Shown: piece by piece, positions 56,266-61,905 of the stretch
Position numbering within the stretch: the stretch's first letter is position 1
Layout: every line of letters begins with the position of its first letter
DNA from: Anaeromyxobacter sp. Fw109-5
GTDB taxonomy: Bacteria; Myxococcota; Myxococcia; Myxococcales; Anaeromyxobacteraceae
Assembly: GCF_000017505.1 (NCBI RefSeq)
Contig: NC_009675.1
Span: 2,418,001 to 2,482,000 of the forward strand
Direction of reading: 5' to 3'
Length of the DNA stretch: 64,000 nt
The notes under the pieces: generated by a model
What the model saw: the letters and a program-made list of their open reading frames with translations, nothing else
Told to the model about the DNA's origin: nothing
The model's database searches: none
Program-made: the position numbers and the translations under genes

Positions 56266-56706
56266 TTAGGCCTTCTTCCACTCGTAGGTGTGGATGGCCG
56301 TCTCGGGGAAGAAGTAGCTCACCTCGATCTTCGCGTTCTCCGCGCTGTCCGAGCCGTGCACGGTGTTCTTCTCGATGTTGGACGCGAAGTCCTTGCGGAT
56401 GGTCCCGGCGGCCGCCTTGGCCGGGTCGGTCGCGCCCATGATCTCCCGGTTCTTCGCCACCGCGCCCTCGCCCTCGAGGACCATCAGGACCACCGGGCCG
56501 CTCGTCATGAACTTCACGAGATCGTTGAAGAACGGGCGCGCCTTGTGGACGGCGTAGAAGCCCTCCGCCTCCGCCTGGGAGAGGTGCGTCATCTTCATCG
56601 CGATCGGCTTCAGGCCGGCCTTCTCGAAGCGGGCGATGACCTGGCCGATGACGCCCTTCTCGACGCCGTCGGGCTTGATGATGGAAAGCGTGCGCTCGTT
56701 CGCCAT
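56266..56706 (-). CDS. ndk: Nucleoside diphosphate kinase
   Basis: A 146-residue NDP kinase moving phosphate from ATP to nucleoside diphosphates. The active site NTVHGSDS holds the phosphorylated His117, and [12 protein letters not shown] is the standard N-terminus. Length is normal. It follows sucD by 37 bases on the same strand, a sensible pairing because succinyl-CoA synthetase makes NTP. A strong hairpin follows the gene. Confidence 0.97.
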
Positions 56707-56743: not shown

Positions 56744-57763
56744 CTAGCCGCGCTCGCGCTTCGCCGCCTTGCGAGCGCCCTTGCCGCCGCGTTGTGAGGG
56801 GGCCGAGCTCCGTGCTCCGGCTCCCCCGCGCGCCGGTGCGGCGGTCGGCGCGCGCTTGCCCGCGGCGGCGGGCCGGGACCGGCCGCGCCGAGCGAGGGCG
56901 TCCTTCATCGCACGACCGAGCAGGTGCGGTCCATCCACGACCGTGATGCCGGCGTCGCGCATCGCCTCGATCTTCGCCTCGGCGGTCCCGCTGCCGCCCG
57001 ACACCACCGCCCCCGCGTGCCCCATGCGCTTCCCGGGGGGCGCCGTCCGGCCGGCGATGAACCCCACGACCGGCTTCTTGACGTGATCACGGACGAAGGC
57101 GGCCCCGCGCTCCTCCTCGGTGCCGCCGATCTCGCCGATCATGATGATCGCGTCGGTGCCGGGATCGTCGGCGAACTCGCGGAGGACGTCGACGAAGTCG
57201 GTGCCGTGCACCGGATCGCCGCCGATGCCCACCGCCGAGGACTGGCCGAGCCCGAGATCGGTGAGCTGCTTCACGGCCTCGTAGGTCAGCGTGCCCGAGC
57301 GCGAGACGACGCCGATGCGCCCCGGCCGATGGATGTGCCCGGGCATGATCCCGATCTTGCACTCGCCCGGGGTGATGAGGCCGGGACAGTTCGGGCCGAT
57401 GAGCCGCGTCCCGGGCCGCTCCGCGAGGAACCGGCGTACGCGGATCATGTCGAGCACCGGGATGCCCTCGGTGATCGCCACGACGAGCGGGATGCCCACG
57501 TCCGCGGACTCGGTGATGGCGTCGGCCGCGAACGGCGGCGGCACGAAGATGACCGCCGCGTTCGCGCCCGTCTCCTTCACGGCGTCGTCCACCGTGTGGA
57601 AGATGGGCACCGTCCCCTGGAACTTCGTGCCGCCGCGGTTCGGCGTCACGCCCGCGACGACGCGCGTGCCGTACTCGAGCATCTGCTCGGTGTGGAAGCT
57701 CCCGGCGGAGCCCGTGATGCCCTGCACCACGACCCTGGTGTCTCGATTGACGTAGATGCTCAC
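56744..57763 (-). CDS. sucD: Succinyl-CoA synthetase alpha subunit with basic C-terminal tail
   Basis: A 339-residue alpha subunit, against about 290 usual. The CoA-binding N-terminus ([14 protein letters not shown]), [10 protein letters not shown] and the phosphohistidine His249 in [10 protein letters not shown] are all in place. The extra 45-50 residues after about 291 are Arg/Lys/Ala/Ser-rich and lack family similarity. With SucC it makes ATP or GTP from succinyl-CoA in the TCA cycle. It lies 223 bases from sucC, and that spacer contains a repeat copy. Confidence 0.95.
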
Positions 57764-57986: not shown

Positions 57987-59150
57987 TCACGCCCGCGCCG
58001 CGGCGACGACCTTGCGCGCCGCGTCGCCGAGGTCGTCGGCCGGGATGATGTCGAGCTCGCTGTGGGCCAGGATCTCCTTGCCCAGCTCGACGTTCGTGCC
58101 CTCGAGCCGGACGACGAGCGGGAGCGCCAGGCCGACCTGCCGCGCCGCCGCGACGATGCCGTTCGCGATGACGTCGCACTTCATGATCCCGCCGAAGATG
58201 TTCACCAGCACCGCCCTCACCGCCGGATCCGAGAGGATGATCTTGAGCGCCGCCGTGACCTTGTCCTCGTCCGCGCCGCCGCCCACGTCGAGGAAGTTCG
58301 CGGGGCGCCCGCCGGAGAGCTTGATGACGTCCATCGTGGCCATCGCCAGGCCGGCGCCGTTCACCATGCAGCCGATGTCGCCGTCCAGCGCGATGTAGGA
58401 GAGATCGTACTCCTTGGCCGTCGTCTCCTTGGGATCCTCCTCGTCGGGATCCCGCATCGCGGCGATGTCGGCGTGGCGGTAGAGCGCGTTGTCGTCGAAG
58501 TTCATCTTCGCGTCGAGCGCCAGCACCTCCCCGCCGACCGTGATGACGAGCGGGTTGATCTCGGCGAGCGACGCGTCGGTCGCGACGTACGCGTTGTGGA
58601 GCCCGGTCGCGAAGCGCACGAAGGCGCCCACCGAGTCGCCCGTCAGCCCCAGCCCGAAGGCCAGCCGCCGGGCCTGGTACGGCATGAGCCCGATGAGGGG
58701 GTCGATCCACTCGCGGAGGATCTTCTCGGGGTGGCGCTTCGCGACCTCCTCGATGTCCACGCCGCCCTCGATCGAGGCCATGACGGCGAGCCGGCCCGCC
58801 TCGCGATCCAGGGTCATGCCGAGGTAGAGCTCCCGCGCGATCCGGCAGCCCTCCTCGATGTACACCTTGCGGACCTCCTGTCCCTCGGGGCCGGTCTGCG
58901 GCGTCTTCAGCATCATCCCGAGCATGGCCTCGGCGTGCTGCCGCGCCTCGTCGGGCGAGCGGGCGAGGCGTACGCCGCCGCCCTTCCCTCGTCCGCCGGC
59001 GTGGATCTGCGCCTTCACCGCGCAGATCCCGCCCCCGAGCTGGCGGGCCGCGCCCTCGGCCTCGAGCGGCGTGACGGCGAGGTAGCCGCGGGGGACGGCG
59101 ACCCCGAACCGCCTCAGGATGTCCTTCGCCTGGTACTCGTGGATCTTCAC
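57987..59150 (-). CDS. sucC: Succinyl-CoA synthetase beta subunit
   Basis: A 387-residue ATP-grasp subunit. The N-terminus [19 protein letters not shown] is the family signature; the ATP-grasp domain and [30 protein letters not shown] in the CoA-ligase half are intact. It converts succinyl-CoA to succinate with the alpha subunit SucD. The start is a GTG at 59150. It lies upstream of sucD and follows a fossil of sdhB, in a TCA-cycle gene run. Confidence 0.96.
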
Positions 59151-59211: not shown

Positions 59212-59304
59212 TCACCCAACGGCGCGGGCGATGGAGGTCGTCGGCGGGATGGACTTGGGGCAGACCTCTACACAGATCCGGCCGTGGTCGCAGTCCCGGA
59301 TTCC
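59212..59304 (-). pseudogene. Fossil C-terminus of succinate dehydrogenase iron-sulfur subunit
   Basis: On the minus strand 30 codons encode GIRDCDHGRICVEVC followed by PKSIPPTTSIARAVG and a TGA. The spacing Cys-X5-Cys-X3-Cys-Pro-Lys and the following PTTSIA match the last iron-sulfur cluster of SdhB (CX5CX3CPKXXXPTXXI). Nothing upstream in frame resembles the rest of the subunit, and no start or other sdh gene is present. It sits between sucC and mdh, where a TCA operon could carry sdh genes. Confidence 0.6.
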
Positions 59305-59459
59305 GCTCCGGCCCATATGAGGCCATGCATCCATCCCCGGACCGAGCCAGAGGGTCGAGACGCGAGCAGCGCGAGGCGCGACGACCGAGCATACCCGCTG
59401 GGTATGTGAGGGAGGAGCAACGAAGCGACGCGACGCGGATCGGCCGCCGCGTCGACGGA

Positions 59460-59483
59460 GGCCGGCTCCCCGCGGAGCCGGCC
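59460..59483 (-). terminator. Hairpin downstream of mdh
   Basis: A perfect 10-base-pair stem GGCCGGCTCC with GGAGCCGGCC and a CCGC loop, 11 bases beyond the mdh stop. No T-run. A smaller hairpin (CATACCC with GGGTATG) lies at 59389-59405. It may separate icd-mdh from sucC-sucD. Confidence 0.6.
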
Positions 59484-59494
59484 CGGCCGAGCCG

Positions 59495-61783
<2,289 letters not shown>

Positions 61784-61817
61784 TCGATCGGACCTCGCGT
61801 ATGGGGAGTGGAGCCGG

Positions 61818-61847
61818 GTCTTATCACCGCGATCGAGAGGGAGTAAA
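61818..61847 (-). promoter_or_regulatory. Candidate sigma-70 promoter for icd-mdh
   Basis: On the minus strand TTTACT (61842-61847) and TAAGAC (61818-61823) are 18 bases apart, with a TG extension just before the -10 (TGATAAGAC). About 35 bases separate the -10 from the icd ATG. Confidence 0.4.
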
Positions 61848-61905
61848 GGCGAAGGGAGGGCCAAAGCCCTCGGAAAATCGGGAGTTTAGTGACCGCTAGG
61901 GTCGA

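Follow-up and report, generated by a model that had tools for sequence, protein, structure and literature searches.

The closest described system to the element reported here is the Firmicute-like succinate dehydrogenase of Myxococcus xanthus, whose iron-sulfur subunit SdhB is MXAN3540. In the available part of the 2007 paper on it, the enzyme is described as absent from all other delta-proteobacteria and its gain is tied to aerobic growth; sdhC (MXAN1072) is unlinked from the other two genes (MXAN3539/3540) (PMC2129111). A 2008 paper argued from other genes that Anaeromyxobacter arose from an aerobic ancestor and proposed that M. xanthus and A. dehalogenans share an ancestor that was facultatively aerobic; no mention of succinate, TCA, citric acid, fumarate reductase, or sdh was found in its available text (PMC2330069). 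The DNA studied here comes from an anaerobic soil bacterium, Anaeromyxobacter sp. Fw109-5, which has been described as reducing iron and as tolerant of microaerophilic conditions (PMC2040194). The window is a 64,000-nucleotide stretch of the genome of this strain (G000). The analysis covered 24 genomes of the family Anaeromyxobacteraceae, Fw109-5 among them, of which 16 reach 90% completeness or more with no more than 5% contamination, and further genomes of the order Myxococcales; many of the comparison genomes are drafts. The sample includes two sister species of the same genus (G003 and G006), two species from a second genus of this family (G012 and G017), and relatives in the same order such as G026, G050, and G056. 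Species relations were taken from a tree of a single gene, SucC.

SdhB proteins of the order fall into two clearly separate types. Type A, the Firmicute-like one, carries the motif CLEEVCG and is recognized by NCBIfam model NF006391 (420.8 bits for the G056 protein; cut-off, 244), and its SdhA by NF006392 (937.8 bits; cut-off, 855). Type B carries CREGICG and matches NF005746 (419.8 bits for the Fw109-5 gene; cut-off, 243), with its SdhA matching NF005749 (1169.6 bits; cut-off, 866) and its SdhC TIGR02046 (187.7 bits; cut-off, 96). Type A is present in family f4 of the order, most of whose genomes are ∼9 Mb in size and have sdhC apart from sdhAB. We take this family to be the Myxococcaceae and, accordingly, the type lost here to be that of M. 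xanthus. The type A profile has 273 positions and was derived from 24 intact SdhB sequences of this order. The type B set has six sequences, five from relatives plus the Fw109-5 protein (L001). The SdhB loci of 30 relatives were the top-scoring ones and not a random draw, with one (L052) left out; 80 distant loci from the genome collection (best, 69% identity) were also left out of the analysis. Whole-genome searches for SdhB used a separate profile of nine sequences.

On the minus strand of the window, positions 59224 to 59316 align to positions 216 to 246 of the type A SdhB profile. The profile gave 30.5 bits in the 344-nt spacer between mdh and sucC (E = 1.3e-9 over 144 spacer frames), compared to 3.6 bits with the type B profile and to 6.4 bits for the best of 9,600 dinucleotide shuffles (400 for each of 24 spacers, six frames each). 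These residues thus match SdhB, and the sdhB fossil that an earlier note, made from the letters alone, had placed between sucC and mdh is confirmed. The whole-genome search of Fw109-5 returned only two sites, an intact SdhB gene at C1:3016802-3017497 and the fossil (E = 2.4e-6) at C1:2477224-2477316, equivalent to window positions 59224 to 59316. The 30-codon frame first reported, at 59212 to 59304 on the minus strand, translates as GIRDCDHGRICVEVCPKSIPPTTSIARAVG followed by a stop, and the minus strand of the spacer contains the frame HMGRSGIRDCDHGRICVEVCPKSIPPTTSIARAVG, also closed by a stop. The assignment of that interval to sdhB held, but the homologous stretch itself lies slightly upstream of it. 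The last iron-sulfur motif with its exact cysteine spacing (C-x5-C-x3-CP) and the PTTSIA after it, both pointed out by the note, are kept in the translation, with IPPTTSIA where type A SdhB has IPLTTSIA. The note had further described a tail ending in a stop. The stop is there, but the profile extends 27 positions beyond the match, and the stop at 59212-59214 is therefore secondary and not the original end of sdhB; what survives comes from inside the gene, close to its 3′ end. In Pfam, the isolated 30-residue peptide gave only sub-threshold matches (Fer4_3, E = 0.021; Fer4, E = 0.029), and it is therefore the comparative evidence that decides the identity of the fossil. Compared with an intact type A SdhB (NF006391, as in family f4; MXAN3540 in M. 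xanthus [PMC2129111]), the fossil is alike in the C-terminal Fe-S motif, in PTTSIA, and in its slot between mdh/sdhA and sucC, but it has only 31 aligned residues, and neither the 2Fe-2S domain (CLEEVCG) nor the first 4Fe-4S motif is present in the 344-nt spacer, nor is an sdhA adjacent. Lacking these two motifs, it is a remnant and not a member gene of NF006391. No SdhB with the type A 2Fe-2S domain and first 4Fe-4S motif was found in the Fw109-5 genome.

The genes around the fossil, all on the minus strand, are those of a TCA cluster. Upstream of the fossil is mdh (malate dehydrogenase, 59495 to 60433; Pfam Ldh_1_N and Ldh_1_C), preceded by icd (isocitrate dehydrogenase, 60470 to 61783; Pfam Iso_dh), whose start was set by eye within an open reading frame of 60470 to 61864. 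Downstream is sucC (succinyl-CoA synthetase beta, 57987 to 59150; Pfam ATP-grasp_2 and Ligase_CoA), followed by two open reading frames whose order is conserved in relatives: one at 56744 to 57763, which, like the earlier note, we take to be sucD (succinyl-CoA synthetase alpha), and the last gene of the conserved cluster at 56266 to 56706, presumably ndk. Intact type A sdhAB occupies the corresponding interval in G056, G050, and G026, where the genes run icd-mdh-sdhA-sdhB-sucC-sucD-ndk. The Fw109-5 fossil occupies the sdhB slot, and sdhA and most of sdhB are missing between mdh and sucC, in agreement with the note's suggestion that sdh genes had been deleted from a TCA operon. In G027, the order is mdh-sdhC-sdhA-sdhB-sucC-sucD. 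Outside the family, 31 genomes of the order had a sucC match (five more had none), and in 17 of these sucC is preceded, at no more than 1.5 kb and on its own strand, by an SdhB gene, which is type A in 15 genomes and type B in 2 (G028 and G034). Among the remaining 14, SdhB is on another contig in 5 and further off or on the other strand in 7; the last 2 were not entered, having no whole strong SdhB match (G057, partial matches on other contigs; G059, weak matches only). In G028 (L199), mdh and sucC flank a type B sdhAB; in G034 (L203, where mdh falls outside the stretch) type B sdhAB is just upstream of sucC, and in G007 (L182) it is ∼1.2 kb upstream of icd. The replacing enzyme has therefore also settled in or beside the TCA cluster.

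Other variations of the cluster were seen as well. The mdh of G016 (L145, C133, 4976-5197) is apparently only a C-terminal piece beside icd (residues 243 to 311; 58% identity). A second sucCD-like pair is found in Fw109-5 at C1:4338010-4340212 (L147, 4011-6213), its SucC 74% identical to that of the window, and several relatives also have a second SucC copy.

The note had raised the question whether the organism relies on another succinate dehydrogenase or fumarate reductase. Fw109-5 carries an intact, non-orthologous type B sdhC-sdhA-sdhB at C1:3014258-3017635, far from the window. Its SdhB (NF005746) belongs to the same superfamily as the gene from which the fossil came and presumably catalyzes the same reaction, but it differs in type (3.6 bits for the fossil with the type B profile), in locus, and in having its own sdhC and sdhA. 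Across the family, 28 SdhB genes were found in 23 of the 24 genomes, in addition to three fossils; the exception, G023, is 74% complete. Twenty-four of the 28 were scored with both profiles and gave 393 to 533 bits with type B and 68 to 108 bits with type A; the other four are type B by construction since they helped build that profile, as did L001, which is nevertheless among the 24 scored. The SdhA beside each of these 24 is type B too. None of the 24 family genomes yielded an intact type A SdhB in the search with the nine-sequence profile. Misassembly, raised earlier as a way in which intact sdh genes might have been rearranged away from the locus, does not account for this in Fw109-5, whose assembly is a single contig of 5,277,990 bases (99.96% complete) and has no type A SdhB relocated elsewhere.

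The fossil is shared. The type A profile detected it at the same place in G003 (44.8 bits) and G006 (32.5 bits), compared to 6.3 and 4.7 bits, respectively, with the type B profile; these species group with Fw109-5 in the SucC tree (94/81, just below the tool's star). The match starts at profile position 203 in G003, 212 in G006, and 216 in Fw109-5. Such similar starts mean that the deletion is most likely older than the split of the three species, which likely have one breakpoint in common, though not an exact one. Four-fold sites of the flanking genes diverge by 30% between Fw109-5 and G003, 31% between Fw109-5 and G006, and 15% between G003 and G006, and over the 72 bases of the fossil core the same pairs differ at 15, 16, and 7 positions (65/72 identical in the last pair). 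By codon position, these differences are 2/6/7, 5/5/6, and 3/3/1, respectively, all small counts. In the TCA genes, the G003-G006 differences are 29/16/142, compared to 3/3/1 in the fossil (Fisher P = 0.0015). In G006, the remnant runs over two reading frames and contains a TGA. From these comparisons, the base changes in the fossil look like neutral decay, as far as such small codon-position counts go. Pseudogene relics left after an operon deletion are an ordinary general kind in bacteria, and the fossil resembles them in its truncation, its broken frame in G006, and its neutral-looking substitutions. It differs in being common to species with ∼30% divergence at four-fold sites, and such persistence is long for bacterial junk DNA.

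A different part of the same gene was found at the same site in the other genus. The mdh-sucC spacer of G012 (L017) matches type A SdhB positions 150 to 202 (12.4 bits) and that of G017 (L015) positions 183 to 206 (6.9 bits); both scores exceed every shuffle, the G017 one narrowly, and neither fragment is among the matches listed in the whole-genome search. It is thus probable that the common ancestor of the two genera carried a type A sdhB here. In the remaining 19 of the 24 family spacers, no sdhB profile score rose above 0 bits. An sdhA remnant was also looked for in the 24 spacers; the best candidate, an antisense match of 4.9 bits in G004, was rejected against a best shuffle of 4.4 bits.

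Several other explanations of the fossil can be weighed against a decaying remnant. First, the remnant may have been taken over at the DNA level as a cis element serving sucCD, either as a leader or as a promoter. No other part of the spacer is as well conserved as its core: one G003-G006 window has 30 of 30 identical bases, compared to 9 to 18 of 30 in each of five windows farther upstream, where the spacer barely aligns, and this could hint at such a role. However, its divergence is not significantly different from, or below, that of the four-fold sites of the flanking genes (P = 0.14, 0.11, and 0.30), no sigma-70-like promoter or terminator was found, and an Rfam scan at E = 0.1 gave no match. 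Moreover, it is kept in only 3 of the 24 family spacers, and 17 of the other 21 are 64 to 164 nt long. We consider such a takeover unlikely. Second, a short functional peptide, such as a mini-ferredoxin, might explain why C-x5-C-x3-CP is kept in Fw109-5, G003, and G006, but the shifted frame with its TGA in G006, the lack of codon-position bias in the fossil differences, and an upstream frame that runs into a dispersed repeat in Fw109-5 make this very improbable. Third, an sdh fragment might have arrived by recent transfer and landed by chance, rather than descending vertically. No point in support was found for this, the stretch being too short to place its nearest relatives on a tree, and it is hard to reconcile with a position precisely where relatives have sdhB, between mdh and sucC, with a similar start of homology in three species, and with the other fragment found there in a second genus; there is hardly any room for it. 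Finally, the likeness might be due to chance, a spacer rich in GC resembling a motif rich in Cys. The sub-threshold Pfam matches of the isolated peptide might speak for this, but it is the least credible of all, with a score 24 bits above the best of the shuffles, the cluster position of the intact gene, and a presence in two sister species.

The dispersed repeat just mentioned, ∼140 bp long, abuts the 5′ edge of the fossil at 59320 to 59466. At least eight copies, including this one, are present in Fw109-5 with at least 83% identity over at least 120 bp, as counted from the 40 candidates scored out of 251 to 298, and all eight have the same orientation along the chromosome. By eye, the ends look inverted in some copies (GAGGCCGTGAA / TTCACGGCCTC); the repeat search found no inverted repeat in the copy of the window. 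In the aligned spacers of G003 and G006, no such repeat was seen.

The remaining subunit of the type A enzyme has a history of its own. Among the 27 non-family genomes of the order with a type A sdhC match, sdhC is beside sdhAB in only 3 (G025, G027, and G044); of the other 24, it is megabases away in G050 and on a different contig than SdhB in 22, and G059 has no strong SdhB match. In a sample of the phylum, 64 of 146 genomes had sdhC matches, all within the order except one at 20.7 bits. Within the family, open type A sdhC genes were found in G003 (C13:32856-33554; L215, 6854-7555, minus strand) and G006 (C26:8515-9228; L216, 6516-7232, plus strand), and none in the other 22 genomes; weak matches of 20.5 to 28.6 bits in Fw109-5, G003, G015, and G018 are their type B SdhC. 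No SdhA or SdhB of either type was found within the 14 kb read around these orphan genes. A ∼33- to 75-bp repeat downstream of the G003 gene (L215, 6791-6823) occurs in many places in several genomes of the genus. In the sdhC tree, from which L229 and L231 were left out because of stops in their rows, the orphan genes branch with families f7 and f9 (82/90, a modest value, with some long rows), near the place of the family in the SucC tree. Apart from sdhC itself and one 32% match ∼6 kb off in L253, no neighborhood was shared between the sisters and five other genomes of the order (L252, L253, and L255 to L257), and the case for vertical descent of the orphan therefore consists of the tree (82/90) and the distribution. 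In Fw109-5, both flanks of the sdhC site are present (83% identity) but 233 bases apart instead of 1,015 (C1:4748674-4748906), with no sdhC signal between them. We infer that Fw109-5 lost sdhC, rather than that its sisters gained it.

The orphan sdhC is apparently still constrained. Its G003-G006 differences by codon position are 25/22/48 (core, 17/11/40), still biased toward third positions. Tested against an even split over the three positions, these counts gave P = 0.0017 (core, 3e-5); tested against the TCA genes, they gave P = 3e-5 (core, 0.012). The NG86 method gave a dN of 0.097 and a dS of 0.30 (core, 0.067 and 0.285), and YN00 gave 0.074 and 0.788 (core, 0.046 and 0.812), for dN/dS ratios of 0.24 to 0.32 and 0.06 to 0.09, respectively. 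For type B sdhC, dN and dS were 0.023 and 0.171 (NG86) and 0.017 and 0.481 (YN00). Judged from these substitutions, the orphan gene is apparently constrained less than the TCA genes, yet not free. By eye, it also keeps four His-centered motifs, NHLW, LLHS/VLHS, AHLW, and YHLANG; such His residues bind heme in the SdhC of Bacillus subtilis. Tentatively, and with the odds somewhat against it, the membrane anchor may have outlived its enzyme, as a heme b cytochrome without a dehydrogenase that has a job of its own in G003 and G006. If so, the orphan SdhC might, for example, exchange electrons with the quinone pool via another partner, and the sdhB fossil would date the change of role of the anchor.

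By far the most probable reading, to which we give a rough probability of 0.93, is that positions 59224 to 59316 are a nonfunctional remnant of type A sdhB from the ancestral TCA cluster, left by a deletion. The ancestral cluster would have been icd-mdh-sdhA-sdhB-sucC-sucD-ndk with type A genes, as it still is in other Myxococcales. With a second, non-orthologous type B sdhCAB elsewhere in the genome, the type A enzyme would have become dispensable in the family, and sdhA would have been deleted together with most of sdhB. On the branch to Fw109-5, G003, and G006, ∼30 to 45 codons near the 3′ end of sdhB would have been left, drifting since, and in the other genus a different piece of the same gene would have survived at the same place. 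In Fw109-5, the dispersed repeat now adjoins the remnant, and the unlinked type A sdhC, kept in both sisters, is absent as well. From this pattern we infer the order of these events and redundancy as their cause, possibly together with a shift to anaerobic respiration; the loss may have happened once or several times.

No published account of this fossil was found in the literature searched. In itself, the fossil is a pseudogene relic of an ordinary sort, and its value is historical. The fossils indicate that the Anaeromyxobacter lineage had a type A succinate dehydrogenase and lost it, and the one in the window is physical evidence, at the ancestral locus, for the former enzyme. For complex II, it favors the view of an aerobic ancestor (PMC2330069) over that of an enzyme absent from all delta-proteobacteria other than M. 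xanthus (PMC2129111). This means that arguments from presence or absence at the protein level can mislead where remnants exist at the DNA level, and that complex II in this lineage is a case of replacement and not of simple absence.
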